Below are positions 10,990 through 64,000 of a stretch of DNA of 64,000 nucleotides, piece after piece (position 1 is the first letter of the stretch; every line of letters starts with the position of its first letter). This DNA is from Polytrichum commune (lineage: Eukaryota > Streptophyta > Polytrichopsida > Polytrichales > Polytrichaceae), in NCBI GenBank assembly GCA_950295325.1, contig OX485804.1, positions 12,154,001 through 12,218,000 on the forward strand, written 5' to 3'. The notes under the pieces were generated by a model. The model did no database searches, was not told the DNA's origin, and was given only the letters and a program-made list of their open reading frames with translations. A program made the translations under genes and the position numbers.

Positions 10990-12866
10990 AACCCTCTTTG
11001 GTTAACATGTTGACCGAACTCCACCAACGAAGCCCAAACGACCGTCCTTCCTCCGTCATCCCTTCGTCCGTCCTGGCCTTTCCGCGTCCATCCCGTCCAC
11101 AGTTCCATTGCAGTGCCAACCGTTCTGTCGGGTCCAATGTTCTAGCTTACCGACGACGCGTCACCGTCGTTATGTACTTCGTCGGTCCGGCCCCCCGTTC
11201 GTCCACTCACCGACGCGCGATTCAGTCCGTCCACGCGGTACGCAAAGTCTTTGTTCGAAGGGATGCTACCTCGGCCCTTCCTCTTCGCACACGATCCCAC
11301 GTTACATGCGGCGGATGGATTGACAAAAAGGGATCAACTCTCCACATCTTTAGTTACTCCACACGCACTGCAGTGAATCGCCTTGTACAGAGAGAGAAAT
11401 TGCGCAAAAATCTGCATGCAAATTCCACTATCTTATCCTCACCTAACTTCTAATTGCGCTTGATGAGCTTAGTGCACCTTCTACCCAGCTGCTGCAATCG
11501 GGGTTTAGGTGAGAGCTTCCAAGAAGCATCATCTGTTGCAGGACGAGTGCACGGGAAGCGTGGGAGAAATTTGACCCTGAAGACCAGAAAGGTAACGAGG
11601 TCTTGGTGTAGGTACATCCCTTTACTTAATTTGTGCCGGTTGGTAGATTCGCGCCATAGCCAGGAATTCTTTTGTGCGGGTCCCGCAGATGTAGAAAACC
11701 GTGTGAGCTGGAGGTCATAGCTGGAGGTCGCTTGCCCCGTCCTGAAGTTAGAGACTCCGTGTGTCGTTCATTGATGAAGTCTCTCCTTTTTTTCCTCTCT
11801 TTGGAACCGCGTAGCACTGCGGAACTCCACCTCTTCTGTGGCACAAAGTTTCTTCATGCAGAGAGTTATAAACTGATTATTCAGTGAATTTTAATTTTGG
11901 TTTTGTTTTGCTTTGTTTGTGGACACAGACAGACAGCGGTAGGGCTACCAGATCTAGGATTAGGATATTTTGTTGTGAAGCCTACGTCGTCAGCATTGAT
12001 TGACGTGCAGCTTTTTGAGTTAGTTGCAGCCAAAAACTGGTGAACAGAAGAGGTTCCAGAGGTCGTGAGGAGGCTTGTCCTTATTTTGGTGCAAATAATT
12101 GCAGAAGGGAATCCTATCGAGGAATTTGGACGGGAAGCGCGCGAGGTTTGTGATTGATGTTCTTTCTCTTGCGCATCTTCTCCGGGGTTTGTTTTTGTGA
12201 GGGATGCGGATCTATAGATCTGGGAGCTGAGGCTGGGTTTCCATCTTTTTTTCCCTGCTCCATATCCAATTTGTGTCCGGCGCTTCTGTCCTCAACACTT
12301 GCTTGTACTTGGGGCACATAAAAAGTATTGTGAGGTGAATGAAATTGAAACTGTTGCTCTTTTAAGCCAATTTGTTGTTTGGAAACTGTGGAACTAAGGA
12401 ATTATGGAACTCGCATAGTCAAGTAGGAGCTCGGAGGTTTGGAATTACGAGACAGACTTGGACGAGCAAATCTTGAGAGACTGTTTTTATTAGGAGTTCT
12501 CAAGCACTTAGTCCTCCTGCAAAGGGTACCTTTTTCGCATGCAAGCCTCTGCTGGATGTTCCTAACGCCTTTCTCCACGTGCTTATACCTTCGGCACTCG
12601 AAATTATTGTGAGATGAATCACATGGAGTTGCTCTTCTAAGCCAATTTGTCTCAGCCTAGTCAAGCAGGAGCTTGGAGGTTTTGGAATTAAGCAATAGAC
12701 TTGAACGAAAAAAATCTTGAGCGATTGTCTTTATTAAGTGTTCTCAAGCCCTTAGTTTTCCCGGAAAGGGTAGCTTTCTCGCATGTAATCCTCTGGTGGA
12801 TGTTCCTGATGCCGTTCTTCTTGATGAAATTTGCAGAAATTGCGATTCAGTAGGAGGGCGTCCCTA
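10990..12866 (+). promoter_or_regulatory. Probable promoter, leader exon and 5' intron of the rhomboid gene
   Basis: Base composition becomes GC- and CpG-richer from about 11000 to 11800 than anywhere nearby, as expected for a gene promoter and first exon. No clear TATA box was found; a GAGAGAGA tract lies near 11390. Plausible splice donors are AG/GTGAGA at 11508/11509 and AAG/GTAACG at 11591/11592. A plausible acceptor TTTGCAG ends at 12836, 30 bp before the ATG, giving a leader intron of about 1.2-1.3 kb. Upstream ATGs in the leader (for example 11463) could form short uORFs. Transcript ends are inferred, not observed. Confidence 0.45.
12299..12820 (+). repeat. Tandem duplication inside the rhomboid leader intron
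   Basis: Two diverged direct copies, about 12299-12576 and 12579-12820. Shared landmarks in order: TATTGTGAG.TGAAT, TTAAGCCAATTTGT, AGTCAAG.AGGAGCT, AATCTTGAG, GTTCTCAAGC, AAGGGTA.CTTT, and CTGGTGGATGTTCCT. The first copy has about 30 extra bases in the middle. The second copy ends directly at the proposed splice acceptor, so the duplication may have produced an extra or alternative acceptor. Confidence 0.8.
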
Positions 12867-13844
12867 ATGGCGGACGTAGAAAGAGGCGCTGTGCGCAATG
12901 GCATGTATCCTTCCTACGTGCAGCCGGTGCGGAAGCCTCCCCGCCGATGGTTCCCTATCTTCACTCTCCTCGCTTTCGTGGCCAACATTGTTGTGTTCGT
13001 CGTCGTCATGTACAAGAACAACTGCCCTGCACACATCCCCGCTGGGCAGAAGTGCGTCCTGCAGTCTTCGTTCAAGAGAATGTCGTTCCAGCCTTGGAAA
13101 GAGAATCCGTTGCTAGGGCCTTCCTCAGCAACACTCCAAGACATGGGAGGATTAGTGAGATCATTAGTCGTCCAGCACAAGCAAGGGTGGAGGCTCATGT
13201 CTGCCGTGTGGCTGCATGCGGGAGTGTTTCATATCGTCGTCAACATGATTGCGCTCCTCATTTTTGGAATTCAGCTGGAGAAAGAGTTCGGATTCATTCG
13301 CATAGCTTTGCTTTACTTGATCTCGGGGCTAGGTGGAACTTTGCTCTCCGCTCTCTTCATCAACACTTCTACGGTGTCCGTAGGTGCATCGGGTGCATTG
13401 TTTGGCCTTCTTGGCGGATGTCTCTCGGAGCTTATCACTAACTGGTCACACTACTCAAGCAGATGCTCCCAGCTCTTCCAGATCATCATTGTTGCGGGCG
13501 TCAGCCTTGCGGTTGGACTCTTACCGCATGTCGACAATTGGGCGCACATTGGAGGATTCGTCACCGGGTTCTTGTTAGGCTTCGTAATTCTAATGAAGCA
13601 CCAATACGCGTGGGTGAGCCGACGTGACCTTCTTGACCCGAGTATCGAGCGGCCAGTCAACAGCAGACACCATTGCTGCCAATACGTGCTTCTCATCGTC
13701 TCCGTAGTCCTCTTGCTAGCAGGATTTGCCGCTGGATTTGGAGCTCTCTACAAGAACATTGACGTCAACAAACATTGCTCCTGGTGTCACTACCTTGATT
13801 GTGTCCCTACCTCAGCATGGACATGTGATAGTGCAAGCCAGTAA
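12867..13844 (+). CDS. RHOMBOID-LIKE intramembrane serine protease (plant RBL type)
   Basis: Encodes 325 aa. Rhomboids cut membrane proteins inside the bilayer; plant RBL1/2-type members are mostly in the Golgi and secretory membranes. Seen in the sequence: a basic N-tail, TM1 at about 29-49, a lumenal loop with NPLLGPSS (80-87) and GWR (107-109), and the TM2 signature H117, H122, N126. The catalytic Ser is S175 in GASG (173-176), and the catalytic His is H227 in HVDNWAHIGG (221-230), followed by the TM6 GFVTGFLLGF. A seventh TM lies at about 273-295, then a Cys-rich tail CSWCHYLDCVPTSAWTC typical of plant RBLs. Start: the in-frame ATG at 12867 (MADVERG) is preferred because the frame upstream lacks an ATG before the intron acceptor at 12836. 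The coding region has no intron, whereas many angiosperm RBL genes have several; this may reflect lineage or a retrocopy. All catalytic residues are intact. Confidence 0.95.
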   Translation: MADVERGAVRNGMYPSYVQPVRKPPRRWFPIFTLLAFVANIVVFVVVMYKNNCPAHIPAGQKCVLQSSFKRMSFQPWKENPLLGPSSATLQDMGGLVRSLVVQHKQGWRLMSAVWLHAGVFHIVVNMIALLIFGIQLEKEFGFIRIALLYLISGLGGTLLSALFINTSTVSVGASGALFGLLGGCLSELITNWSHYSSRCSQLFQIIIVAGVSLAVGLLPHVDNWAHIGGFVTGFLLGFVILMKHQYAWVSRRDLLDPSIERPVNSRHHCCQYVLLIVSVVLLLAGFAAGFGALYKNIDVNKHCSWCHYLDCVPTSAWTCDSASQ

Positions 13845-26049: not shown

Positions 26050-26984
26050 GGCTAAACGATTTGAAACTACATGGTTCTCCTTACGAAACTATCAAGACCA
26101 TAGCTAGAGTTTTTGAAGAAAATGGTCAATAAGTGCCCAAACGTAAAGGCGGTGTTTGCTATCCAATTTTACAAGGTGCGCACATTCAATGATTGGTATA
26201 GAGGCTTGATGCATATTCAAACATTCATGTAGAATCTCTCCATCATTGGCTAAATGAAGCTTTCAATTCCCACGCCATGTATTTGTTAGTTGAGTTTCAA
26301 AAGCCATTTGAACCCAAGCTGGATTTACCCTAAAGTTGATGCGCCATGCATGAACCGGATGATTATAACAATGAAGAATGTTTTAGAGAGCATATAGGGC
26401 GGTGTCGAAAGTTTTTAGAGCTTGGTGGCAGTATGGCCGATGTTGTATACATGAATGAGGTTGGTTTCAATTTACATTTGACAGGTTGATTTGGAAGGGC
26501 TCATCGAGGAGAAAGACACCAACAAATTCGTCCAACTCCAAGGGGTTGAAAGTTATCTTTGGTGGTAGCAGTGGATCATGAAGGAGTCATTGGACATGAT
26601 GTCACACTTGATGCCTACAATACAAACAAGTTCTTAGAATTCATTTAGACCAAGGCCATTCCTAGCCTTGATAGACAAAGGTCTATCGTCATGGACAATG
26701 TCCCATTTCACATATCTCATGAAATACAACAAGCTTTTGAAGATGTTGGACACATCAACTTCCATTTGCCATCATATAGTCCATTTCTCAATGCCACAGA
26801 ATGGGTATTTGGACACATCAAAAGCTATGTCCCATGGCATGATCATATCAATGATGACGTACAAAATCATCAAACATGATTAGATCACAGTAATGATGAC
26901 GTAGAAGCATTCTCTGTAGACATGGTCCAAAGTTGGATAAGAGAGGTCAATCAAAATTTTGGTAGAACTAATTGTGGGGAGTGA
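26050..26984 (+). pseudogene. IS630/Tc1-type (DDE_3) transposase relic
   Basis: Cut-and-paste transposase of the IS630-Tc1-mariner superfamily, decayed. An N-terminal helix-turn-helix region reads YETIKTIARVFEENGQ, followed by a Lys/Arg/Gly linker and WLNEAFNSHA. The first catalytic block is VVYMNEVGFNLHL, where the usual Asp is Asn. The second block is SIVMDNVPFHISHEI with Asp intact. After exactly 34 residues comes LPSYSPFLNATE with Glu, then WVFGHIKSYV. This gives DD34E spacing. The tail continues to a stop at 26982-26984. Several in-frame stops and at least one frameshift (about 26540-26600) break it. No TIRs were found around it. It differs from the Tc1 copy at 56-57 kb. Confidence 0.85.
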
Positions 26985-46299: not shown

Positions 46300-46681
46300 A
46301 ATGGTGAGAGGAGTAAGCTTAGCAGCTGGAATCTATGGCGAGGCCAGAACGGTGGTTACAGGGTTAAGAAGTAAGCCCTTAGCGGCTGGGATTTATGGCT
46401 GAGGCCAGAACTGTGGTTACAGGGTTGAGGAGTAAGCCTTAGCGGCTGGGATTTATGGCCGAGGCCAGAACTGTGGTTACAGGGTTGAGGAGTAAGCTTA
46501 GCAGCTGGAATCTATGGCGAGGCCAGAACGGTGGTTACAGGGTTAAGAAGTAAGCCCTTAGCGGATGGGATTTATGGCCGAGGCCAGAACTGTGGTTACA
46601 AGGTTAAGAAGTAAGCCTTAGCGACTGAATCTATGGCCGAGGCCAGGACTGTGCGGTTACAGGGTTGAGGAGTAAGCCTTA

Positions 46682-47780
46682 GAGCATCCCCACTAGACCG
46701 GGCACCGCCCCGGGCATAATTGCACCGGTGGCACCCCGGGCATAGTGTGGGTTTACCCGACATATTGTTGGAGCCCACTAGCTCGGGTACATGCCCCTCT
46801 TCGAGGCCGGCCCCCGCCCGGTATTACCCCCTTGCCCGATTCCATTAGCCTTGCCCGATGCCTTGCCCGGATACCGATTCCGTGCCCGATGTGTTGCCCG
46901 ATTCCCTACCCGATCCCTTTCGGTTCTCCGCCCGGAAATATACTAAAATCCCTCGTTAACTAATTCACTAATTAACTAATTCACTAATCATACTAGATTT
47001 TCATCAATCACGAAATAAAACATTACACTAATATCACTATATGAGTTAATTTGAGACTTTCTATTGTCACCCATTAATATATGGACCACAACAACATGGT
47101 CTAATGTTTGAGTCGTCCTACCTAAACCATCTTGAAATGGGTTCTTAAAGACTGCAGATTTGTTTTCTTGGTTTTTCAGCTGCAATTTCAAGACTTTGGG
47201 GGCATGTTATGTACCGCTGGAAAGATATTTTCAATGCCTTTCCAACAGTATATAACATGCCCCCAAATTCTTAAAATTTCAGCTGTAAAACCCACAAAAC
47301 AAATCTGCAGTCTTTTAGTGACTGCAGATCAGGGTGGTCAAAAGCTCATGGTCCCATAACCGTTGTCCAAACCCCAAGTGGCAGATATAAAGGAAAAAAA
47401 TTACGAAGAAGAAGAAGGAGCTGGAGCGGGAGCGGCTTGGCTTGGCTTGGCTTGGCTTAACATTTTAGGTGAAGTACCGTCCTGTGTTTTTGCTTTGCAT
47501 TCTTCTGCCCTATCCCTCCTCCTCCCACCCATTGCAGGTACACCCCCCCCCTTCCTGACATGGTGGAATAAGTCCAAAGTTGGGCTAACTGGCGGATGGC
47601 GTTGGCGGGCAGAACACGGTACCCGAGGCCAATATACCCGAAGAGCTCCTCCCAAATGCCCGGCCCGGCACCCTTTATGGCGTTAGCGTCGACTGGTGGA
47701 CGTTAGAACTTGGCGTCCCGGGCACCGGATTTCCAGGAGTGCCGTTCAACTGACTTATACCTCCGCTGGTGGGAATGCTC
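46682..47780. mobile_element. 1.1-kb TTA-flanked element in the minisatellite
   Basis: 1099 bp. Ends GAGCATCCCCACTAG and CTGGTGGGAATGCTC are inverted with two mismatches. TTA flanks both sides (46679-46681, 47781-47783), fitting PIF/Harbinger. Its outer parts are GC-rich with repeated TTGCCCGAT words (46800-46930). The middle is AT-rich and contains the foldback at 47148-47314. No transposase. Confidence 0.85.
47148..47314. repeat. 167-bp foldback inside the 1.1-kb element
   Basis: AAAGACTGCAGATTTGTTTT pairs with AAAACAAATCTGCAGTCTTT; further in TTTCAGCTG pairs with CAGCTG.AAA, GGGGGCATGTTAT with ATAACATGCCCCC, and CTGGAAAG with CTTTCCAACAG. Arms of about 75 bp with a short loop. Confidence 0.8.
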
Positions 47781-47905
47781 TTAGCGGCTGGGATTTATGG
47801 CCGAGGCCATAACTGTGGTTACAGGGTTGAGGAGTAAGCCTTAGCAGCTGGAATCTAGGCCGAGGCCATAATTGAGTGATTAGAGGGTGAGGAGCTAAGC
47901 TCGGA

Positions 47906-55155: not shown

Positions 55156-56053
55156 GGTGGGGATGGGCCTTTACTTACTCAAGCTAGCTTAAAAGTTATA
55201 ATAAGTGATGACACCCACTCCGACACCCAATGTCAACTTTCACATTAGATAAAGTCAATTCTACTACATAGATGGGGCCTCTATATCTACTGTAGTATGA
55301 TCATGGGCTCGCCTTAAAGTGTGCGTTTCCATTGAAAACCGGAAACAAAAGTTGCAAGTTGGAAGGCTGATGTCACTTTGGCAACGGCCACTTACTCCAA
55401 GTATAGGCCCTTCTCCACTTGATGCTAAATAGAGGGTTTTAGCCGGAAGGGAGAGTTTCACTTACTATGTATTCTAATGACTACAATGTTGACAATGCTT
55501 GTCAATCCTAAGTGGGAACATTGAATACTTGGTTTGAGTTCAAGCAAATGTCAACCTTACAGTTACTAAAAGATCGCTAATTTTTTTTGAGAATCACAGT
55601 TATGAATTACGTATGGTTATTTGAAAATTTGAGAACTACAGTTATAATTTGAAAGAACTGTCTTGATAACCTATGGGGGTTTGGTGTCAATTATGACACT
55701 TGTCCAACACTGGTTAGAACGTTGATGTCACCATGGTACCACGACCTTCTCCAGGTATAGTGATTTCCAAAAGTAATGCAATACCCTTTGCAAACATATG
55801 AAATTGACATTTTTTCTTGGAAATGGGAAAACCTTACATTATGTGGTGCTACCATAGTTTATACAAAGTATGTAGCTAGCCTCATGTCAATTTCCAATGG
55901 TAATCGGATTCACAAGCCAATTGGCATTACTATTGGCTCTTTTGACATTATTATGATCCTGAACCACATTGGATGACATTGAAAACATCGCAAAATGTAA
56001 AGAAAAATGTAGTTCATTTGTTGTTCATTTTGTTTCAATGGTATGCTACTTGG

Positions 56054-57489
56054 CTAGTATTTGGCTTATCCTCCTCTCGTCTTCAACAATGCTTGCACTC
56101 TATTGCGCATTGATTATACTAGCTTTTGTACGACTCCCACTTCAATGTTGTTCCATGCCTCTTGCAGCTTCTTCCAAAGGTTATTCTTGCTAGTGGGGAG
56201 GTCTTTACATAGTTGGAGGTGCTAGTCCATTTCATTCCAAAGGTGCTCGATAGGATTCATGTCGGGAGATTGTGGACTCCATAACAATACTATAATTGCG
56301 TAAGTGTTGCAATGATTTGATTATTGACTTGCTAGTATGCTTTGGGTTGTTATCTTGTTGGAAAACTCACTCCTTTGCTCATTTTCCGAACTTCACAACC
56401 AACATGCTCAAGCTATCATGTAGGATGCTATCATAATGCTCGCTATTCTTTTCCCTTTGATTTTGGTCAACACCCCAATGCCCTCCCACTCATGCAACCC
56501 CAAACCATGATGCTCCCTCCTCCGTGCTTCACACTCTTACTAACCACTCAATTGCTTAGGGGTTCCCCATGCCTCTCACAACACCACTCTTGACCATCAT
56601 ACCCCACAATGTTGATTTTACTTTCATATGAGAATAAAACTTTCCTTCATTGCTCCTACATCCAATCCCTTATGCTCTTTTGCCCCATCCATGCCTAAAT
56701 TTTTTGTGATGATCTAGACGGAGAGCCTTCTTCTCCTTAGTTGCATATTGTAGTCCTTGGCACTTTAGTGCTTTTCTTATTGTGTTAGGGGTAGCTAAAA
56801 TATTTTGAAACCTCTCAAAGACCCCTCCAACATTTTACAATATTATGCTCTTTTGTTTGCACCAATTGCTCCCAAGTAACAATCATCCCTCTCACTAAAA
56901 ATGCATAGACGCCTTCATCTTCCCTTATCCACCAACCTTCCTTGTAGCTTGCAACGTTTAATGATGCGACTGACTAAGGTAGGGGTGGCAATTTCCATGC
57001 GGGTCCTAAAGTCAACCCCTATGTCGGAAGCACCTTTCTAGGTGCTTTTACATGGGTTTACAAAAGCACCTATCAAGGTGCTTTTACCATTCACAGCGCT
57101 GCCAACATTTCATTGGCTGCCAGCAGTCGGTTTAATGCTGCCAGCGGTCGGTTTTAGAAATCCACCCTATGGATATACCACGTATCCTATGTGCAAGTGT
57201 TGGTCACTCTACAAGGTTTCCTTTAAAAAAATTTAGGAAATCATAAACATGCTGGAAATTTTTGATTTTTTCATAGTTGCTCTTGCACCAGCTTTGTGGA
57301 GCGCTCAAAATTTATAAAAAAAAATAGTTTCAACATCCCAACTAGGCACATCTGAAATTTGGACGGAAATAGCCACCCCTACCTTATTGACGATGTTGTT
57401 CCTAGTTTGCCGGCTATTGTACAACAACTTTGTTATTTAGTATGGATGCCAATAACTTGTGCACAAATTTCTAAGGATTTTTTGTGCAT
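56054..57489 (-). pseudogene. Tc1 transposase relic (DD34E)
   Basis: Proposed start at 57489 (MHKKSLEICAQ) and stop at 56054. Without the nested 412 bp this spans about 341 codons, the normal Tc1 length. Order seen: first helix-turn-helix CTIAGKLGTT, the insert, then VSRIIKRCKLQGRLVDKGR, the second DNA-binding half, and VLFSYESKINIVGYDGQEW where the catalytic SDE Asp is Tyr. It continues with KHGGGSIMVWGCMSGRALG, QQDNNPKHTSK (second Asp present), WSPQSPDMNPIEHLWNEMD (Glu present) and a C-terminal SMRNRVQALLKTRGG. The Asp-to-Glu gap is 34 residues once one extra base is allowed for. Stops, frameshifts, the Asp-to-Tyr change and the insertion leave it non-functional. Confidence 0.92.
56975..57386. 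mobile_element. 412-bp element inside the Tc1 transposase
   Basis: Ends TAAGGTAGGGGTGGCAATTT and the near-complement AATAGCCACCCCTACCTTA. Flanked by TGAC on both sides (56971-56974; 57387-57391 TTGAC). The transposase helix-turn-helix reads straight through when it is removed, proving insertion. It contains the small stem AAGCACC...GGTGCTTTT twice (57028-57090). No coding region. Confidence 0.85.
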
Positions 57490-57490
57490 G

Positions 57491-57562
57491 GTGGAAAGGG
57501 GAATTGAACCAAGGACCTCATGAATGCAAAGCAAAATTGTTAACCGATGAGTTATTGCGTAC
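57491..57562 (-). repeat. tRNA-Ala-like segment in the Tc1 5' region
   Basis: 72 nt on the minus strand. A-box-like TAACTCATCGGTTAACA, an anticodon-arm region GCTTTGCATTCATGAGG resembling tRNA-Ala(TGC), and B box GGTTCAATTCC. The acceptor ends do not pair, so it is not a working tRNA gene; it is a decayed tRNA or SINE head. It abuts the proposed transposase start codon by one base. Confidence 0.5.
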
Positions 57563-57890
57563 TATAACGTGGATTGCTATTGTATTTTAGCAAATTTGAA
57601 GAATTCCAAAAGTAGTGCCACACCCCAAGTTCACATTTTTACCATTTGCTGATGGCATGTGAGTCCGATCACCATGGAAATTCATGTGGTCCTAGGTACA
57701 TACTTTATTTAGATTATGTCGGCACCACGTGACGCATGCTTTTCCAATCTCCAAGAAAATGTCAATTTTGTATGTTTGTAAAGGGTGTTGCATTACTATT
57801 GAAACTCACTCTAGGTATCGTGTTTTCCTAAACACATCATAGATCAATCTCCAACTTATTATTTTGTATAACCCATATTATAGGGTGGTG

Positions 57891-63604: not shown

Positions 63605-64000
63605 CATTTAGGTTGAGTCGACCTAAATGAGGACAATATTTTGTCAATTTAGGTTGAGTCGACCTAAATGAGGACATTATGTTGTCAATTTAGGTTGAGT
63701 CGACCTAAATGAGGACAATATTTTGTCAATTTAGGTTGAGTCGACCTAAATGAGGACAATTATGTTAGTCAATTTAGATTGAGTCGACCTAAATGAGGAC
63801 AATATGTTAGTCAATTTAGGTTGAGTCGACCTAAATGAGGACAATTATGTTAGTCAATTTAGATTGAGTTGACCTAAATGAGGACAATATGTTAGTCGAT
63901 TTAGGTTGAGTCGACCTAAATGAGGACAATATGTTGTCAATTTAGGTTGAGTCGACCTAAATGAGGACAATTATGTTAGTCAATTTAGATTGAGTCGACC
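63605..64000 (+). repeat. 41-43-bp minisatellite running off the window
   Basis: At least nine and a half units of TTTAGGTTGAGTCGACCTAA, then ATGAGGACAATATTTTGTCAA, with a longer variant ending TTATGTTAGTCAA. Each unit contains the inverted word TTTAGGT...ACCTAAA around a GTCGAC core. The array continues beyond position 64000. Confidence 0.95.

Follow-up and report, generated by a model that had tools for sequence, protein, structure and literature searches.

DD34E Tc1-like elements have been described from the moss Physcomitrella and from nine angiosperms (Liu and Yang 2014, PMC4054914). The two moss elements of that account, PpTc1 and PpTc2 of Physcomitrium patens, are 1,584 and 1,709 bp long, encode a transposase of 338 residues, duplicate a TA target and have 33-bp TIRs ending in CAGT; their full-length copies average ~96% identity and retain intact frames. 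A later report (2020, PMC7466625) placed two Physcomitrium families closer to fungal elements, for which it suggested horizontal transfer from fungi, and described one further Physcomitrium element resembling fungal ones. Long TIRs are a feature of Sleeping Beauty and other Tc1 elements of the IR/DR type, in which TIRs of ~200–220 bp with an outer and further inner motifs accompany a Tc1-type transposase, the outer and inner sites being direct repeats (PMC7827188). Bari3 of Drosophila likewise has long TIRs with three short motifs (PMC4120734). Plants also host DD39D mariner-like elements, which belong to the same superfamily and have Asp as third catalytic residue at a spacing of 39.

Here we describe a family of Tc1-like elements from one copy in a window of 64,000 nucleotides (G000:C2:12154001-12218000), the whole stretch of DNA that was analysed. 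As in PpTc1 and PpTc2, the host is most likely a moss, the transposase is of the DD34E type and TA is duplicated; the element measures 1,644 bp with a 341-codon coding span. By contrast with the published moss elements, it has TIRs of ~200 bp with inner motifs, its family ends mostly in CAAT, its copies are only 73–84% identical to a reference copy (L002) in their main matches, and the longest stop-free stretch in 40 copies is 212 residues. The distinction from PpTc1 and PpTc2 is drawn from their published description. In the open-licence literature we found no report of Tc1-like elements in a moss other than Physcomitrium. A preliminary description of this locus had proposed either an overlooked plant lineage of Tc1 or horizontal transfer; the first of these proposals is superseded by the 2014 account, in which DD34E elements of plants are already reported.

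Results

A dead Tc1-like element interrupted by a younger MITE

The element carries TA at both ends (Table 1), and local alignment of its ends scored 207, whereas none of 500 shuffles scored above 81, in agreement with the Tc1 borders and long TIRs first noticed there. The alignment spans 415 columns at 65% with gaps, its outer part being the good part; ungapped, the TIR arms pair over 58 nt at 86% and 85 nt at 74% complementarity. The termini of this copy read TAGT and GAGT. Removal of the insert and the duplicated TA (410 bp) from 2,054 bp leaves 1,644 bp, and the coding span, with the MITE discounted, comes to 341 codons plus a stop, so that the 1.64-kb length and about 341 codons of the preliminary description were reproduced. 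Its wording "near-complete" applies to length but not to function: the transposase frames contain several stops and frameshifts, the longest stop-free stretch is 54 residues and the first catalytic Asp has been replaced by Tyr. The window copy is clearly dead.

Table 1 Features of the Tc1-like element in the window (window positions; ~, approximate).
Feature	Position	Strand	Remarks
Left TA target-site duplication	55756..55757	.	sequence
Tc1-like (DD34E) element with internal MITE	55758..57811	-	transposase on minus strand
Left TIR	55758..55935	+	inner limit approximate
Left TIR, outer motif	55762-55786		
Left TIR, middle motif	~55890-55912		
Left TIR, inner inverted motif			weak, 13/23 (shuffle level)
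Transposase pseudogene, MITE-interrupted	56054..57489	-	ATG 57489-57487, TAG 56056-56054
Catalytic Glu	56246..56248	-	SPDMNPIEHLW
Second catalytic Asp	56352..56354	-	QQDNNPKHTSK
First catalytic Asp position	56626..56628	-	Tyr in window copy
MITE insert with TA duplications	56975..57386	.	MITE 56977-57384
Right TIR	57601..57811	-	
Right TIR, inner copy of terminal motif	57601-57625	forward	inverted relative to outer motif
Right TIR, middle motif	~57660-57682	reverse	
Right TIR, outer motif	57783-57807	reverse	
Right TA target-site duplication	57812..57813	.	sequence

The insert is a MITE of 408 bp with TA on both flanks and 22-bp inverted ends that are 95% complementary; the sister copy L002 has an uninterrupted, empty site at this position. 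Among 40 scored candidates (461 at first look), 38 other loci matched the MITE at 93–96%. Since MITE copies are far more alike than copies of the element that hosts them, the MITE is the younger of the two; it belongs to a high-copy young family with TA duplication. No source element for it was found among loci L009-L028 and L059-L075, where one place in L013 lies within one mismatch of the MITE end.

Assignment to the Tc1 DD34E type

The window copy places the Glu 106 nt from the second Asp, one nucleotide off the 105 nt (34 residues between) found in 16 of 25 aligned family copies, one of which reaches 105 nt through compensating shifts. The other spacings were 104 nt (three copies), 106 nt (three, including the window copy), 97, 107 and 108 nt. 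The spacing was also 34, counted on translations, in five host relatives with open frames (L009, L010, L013, L018 and L025), and the 34-residue spacing originally read from the decayed copy thus held in intact relatives as well.

Read through, L002 scored 40.1 bits for Pfam DDE_3 (cut-off 28.6), and HTH_Tnp_Tc3_2, which represents the paired-like HTH DNA-binding region, exceeded its cut-off within three family copies, at C7:24794948 (L046), C5:38288746 (L034) and C3:37040310 (L062). The window copy's own frames stayed below the curated cut-offs (DDE_3 15.1 bits, HTH_Tnp_Tc3_2 13.8 bits), and two N-terminal pieces of it gave zero Pfam matches, so the class assignment leans on its relatives.

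Among the 40 family loci, 12 passed the cut for a count of end bases. At their 24 ends, the bases outside the terminal motif were T at 18 and A at 21, and the motif itself began with C (18) and A (23), followed by A (14) or G (8) and then T (21). Family ends therefore read TA-CA(A/G)TG, with CAAT commoner than CAGT, the terminus of known Tc1 elements, which was exact at 3 of 24; it is possible that the CAAT-type ends decayed from CAGT. Apart from these CAAT ends, the features read from the sequences indicate Tc1-like elements and not DD39D mariners, as the preliminary description had held.

An old family with star-like divergence

A DNA search with L002 took up the genome-wide copy count that had been suggested for this element: all 40 scored candidates of 90 first-look candidates were family copies (the 40 include L002 itself and the window copy), distributed over contigs C1 to C7. 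Pairwise differences averaged 0.255 (range 0.146–0.502; 757 of 780 pairs, those with more than 300 shared columns). The tree of the 40 copies is star-like, with a median end branch of 0.16; by the quick method used, 26 of 37 inner branches were open and three starred. A full-length open frame was present in none of the 40.

Divergence by codon position was 0.243, 0.207 and 0.242 in 25 copies (third position versus the other two, p 0.14). Such near-equal values are expected if most divergence followed the death of the copies, while the slightly lower value at position 2 may mean that some of it predates death. At 1% per million years, the rate used in PMC4054914, the burst would have an age of the order of 16 million years, which is a rough estimate.

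CpG sites have been lost disproportionately. In column pairs chosen for holding CG together with its two transition products, 431 of 1,467 cells (29%) still read CG. When the same choice was applied to eleven other dinucleotides as a control, GC survived in 1,372 of 2,239 (61%) and the ten others in 56–75%. This marked loss suggests that cytosine methylation by the host acted on the family.

An inverted inner copy of the terminal motif in the TIRs

Nine copies retain both ends in a form suited to motif comparison. In these, the 23-bp terminal motif recurs in inverted orientation 171–207 bp inside the end, matching at 16–22 of 23 positions at 17 of 18 ends and at 13 at the remaining one, the left end of the window copy. 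Matches in direct orientation did not exceed the 95% shuffle level (13–14) at 17 of 18 ends, the exception again being the left end of the window copy, with 14 versus 13. In a larger set of 13 copies, which includes these nine together with L034, L035, L040 and L042, the inner motif matched at 17–23 positions at all 13 right ends and at 16–21 positions at nine of 13 left ends, while the left ends of L034, L040, L042 and the window copy gave 13–14 of 23.

A further, middle motif lies 114–150 bp inside the end and matches at 16–23 of 23 positions, a count made without shuffle control. We considered whether it is a relative of the terminal motif; the two agree at 11 of 22 positions (likewise without shuffle control), and it was treated as a separate motif. 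An IR/DR arrangement with direct inner repeats, as a direct match of 68% in the left TIR had implied, was also considered and set aside: direct matches are at shuffle level at 17 of 18 ends and inverted ones well above it.

The architecture can thus be compared with that of described elements. Sleeping Beauty shares the long TIRs with outer and inner motifs, but its sites are described as direct repeats (PMC7827188), whereas the strong inner copy in the window family is inverted relative to the outer one. The motifs of Bari, from an insect host, are likewise given as direct repeats of one another (PMC4120734), unlike those found here. A narrow literature search for an inverted inner motif in such elements found none.

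An unusual first catalytic codon

The first catalytic codon could be read in 33 copies: 8 have Asp there, 15 Tyr, 7 Asn, 2 Cys and 1 Ser. At the second, Asp is retained in 31 of 37 copies (first versus second, Fisher p 7e-7). At the third, 34 copies were readable, with Glu in 16 and Lys in 16, a split that fits CpG loss. Plain decay from an active master does not account well for the pattern at the first codon. A subfamily defined by Tyr at this position was looked for and rejected, as no linked columns emerged beyond 60 label shuffles.

Residence in the host genome

The genome comprises 407,808,757 bases in 64 contigs, and ~406 Mb of it lie in seven contigs of 42 to 78 Mb. Polytrichum has n=7. 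The LEAFY SAM domain had four matches in the genome, and the LEAFY DNA-binding domain could be read in three regions. With its exons joined, the gene L075 on C1 matched PDB 4bhk best (2.7e-103), followed by 9fwy (1.2e-81), 9g19 (6.1e-81) and 2vy1 (1.9e-76); we take 4bhk to be the Physcomitrella protein and 2vy1 the Arabidopsis one. The three LEAFY genes (L073, L074 and L075) show two residue types, Asp with Cys in two and His with Arg in one, which are presumably the type II and type I residues of LEAFY, respectively. According to PMC6588583, type II occurs mainly in mosses, mosses outside Bryopsida and one liverwort have the two types together, and Polytrichum commune is named as a species with both. 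The number of large contigs, seven, and the two LEAFY residue types suggest that the host is an early-diverging moss, for instance one of the Polytrichaceae.

Elsewhere in the window, an uninterrupted frame of 337 codons (12831-13844, plus strand) resembles, by eye, a plant rhomboid protease gene. A tandem array of a 41-bp unit, in ~9 copies, occupies 63606-64000 up to the window end, and two arrays of a similar 60-bp unit stand at 46308-46682 and 47780-47900, ~1.1 kb apart.

Other Tc1-type elements in the host

Tc1-type domains are numerous in this genome. PF01498 was matched by all 150 scored of 337 candidates and by none in 14 control genomes. PF13358 was matched by 149 of 150 scored of 457 candidates and also in 3 of the 14 controls, so this domain is not specific to Tc1. 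Several of the matches to PF01498 and PF13358 fall in open frames of 300–400 residues. A 12-row tree, built with few references (ten host rows, Sleeping Beauty taken from a PDB match and a Tc1 sequence used without a database record), split into two broad types, one of which contained the window family together with Sleeping Beauty and that Tc1; the test did not reject all ten host rows forming one clade (p-AU 0.152). As for further references, a single protein query against viral and prokaryotic contigs gave 0 matches, and an alignment query yielded 23 viral and 3 prokaryotic loci whose identities of 23–32% made them of no use for placement.

Individual loci differ in apparent age. L009 (C1:3572863-3575014) has 221-bp TIRs that are 98% alike, and one further full-length copy of it, 96% identical, lies at C2:34857607-34859747. 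This pair suggests that some Tc1 elements moved recently, and L009 is probably a young invader. L010 (C3:54732713-54735482) is Tc1-like, with 580-bp TIRs that are 96% alike and an open frame of 345 residues; six other loci, 91–95% identical to L010, resemble foldback elements of ~1 kb consisting of its two TIRs alone. The window itself holds a second decayed transposase (26200-26900, plus strand; DDE_3 72 bits, cut-off 28.6) with the motif SPFLNATE and, by count, likewise 34 residues separating Asp and Glu, of another IS630-Tc1-mariner type.

Discussion

We are nearly certain that the window copy is a fossil of a Tc1-like cut-and-paste family that multiplied once, in an old burst among the ancestors of a moss, and then died. 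By analogy with its family, the active element would have encoded a 341-residue transposase that bound the motifs in the ~200-bp TIRs through helix-turn-helix domains; its DDE catalytic domain would have excised the element, which would then have inserted at TA with duplication of the TA. The copies would subsequently have decayed through point mutations and small indels with loss of CpG sites, and a young TA-targeting MITE would later have entered the transposase region of the window copy.

Animals and fungi are the typical hosts of Tc1 elements, and the angiosperm elements published so far are described as mostly single-copy and fragmented (PMC4054914), which might lead one to suspect that the contig or the element is animal or fungal contamination. 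The window, however, lies within a contig of 70.3 Mb, the scored copies, 40 in all, are distributed across C1-C7, and copy-bearing contigs hold plant genes, with LEAFY domains on C1 and C7 and one C1 gene at 2.7e-103 to solved LEAFY proteins. On contig size and spread of copies, contamination can be dismissed as very unlikely, with hardly any probability left to it; on this point the preliminary description holds, and the element belongs to a plant genome, most likely that of a moss. Membership of the DD39D mariner-like elements known in plants (PMC4054914) is just as improbable. Judged on sequence features, spacing and third residue decide the matter: the family shows a spacing of 34, Glu or Lys as its third catalytic residue and Tc1-type motifs, and it has neither the third Asp nor the spacing of 39. 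The one open-frame host relative that was searched, L025, matched Sleeping Beauty at 1.9e-46 and Mos1 only at 4.6e-4.

The family may have entered mosses horizontally, with fungi as the most likely donors, instead of descending within plants. Such an origin would be compatible with the fossil Tc1 interpretation, and we regard it as quite possible, while leaning somewhat away from it. A fungal origin has been suggested for two Physcomitrium families (PMC7466625), and in the 12-row tree the window family does not join the remaining host Tc1 families of the same broad type with support; but one clade comprising all ten host rows is not rejected in that tree, which contains only two non-host rows, one of them without a database record, and the family is old in the host genome by its median end branch. 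The first catalytic codon raises a separate possibility, namely that most copies in the burst were catalytically dead, with Tyr in place of the first Asp, and depended on a few active copies to move them in trans. The Tyr found in 15 of the 33 readable copies represents a transversion that CpG loss leaves unexplained, and the second Asp is largely intact. Against this, the best linkage of any other column to the Tyr state (p 0.0013) was surpassed in at least 6 of 60 label shuffles, Tyr copies are scattered over the tree with at least 11 changes, and 21 of 1,638 columns have a transversion split this large, so that it would be no great surprise to find a triad position among them. We consider such movement in trans improbable. 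Similarly speculative is the fuller picture of a moss Tc1 lineage whose 200-bp TIRs each have the terminal motif at one limit and its inverted copy at the other, an arrangement that could allow symmetric binding of each end, and whose one old burst included copies with a dead first catalytic residue that active copies mobilized in trans.

Taken alone, the window copy is an ordinary transposon fossil. DD34E elements in a moss and in angiosperms were known from 2014, and transfer from fungi had been proposed for moss elements in 2020, on the published accounts cited above; new here are another moss family, a TIR layout with an inverted inner terminal motif, and the size of the Tc1 population in this host. 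Long TIRs with an inverted inner motif constitute a structural variant worth comparing with the IR/DR elements. The results carry the record of Tc1-like elements in mosses past Physcomitrium: a further moss holds at least 40 copies of an old family as well as many other Tc1-type domains, and comparison of moss genomes makes the published question, transfer from fungi versus an old moss lineage, testable.
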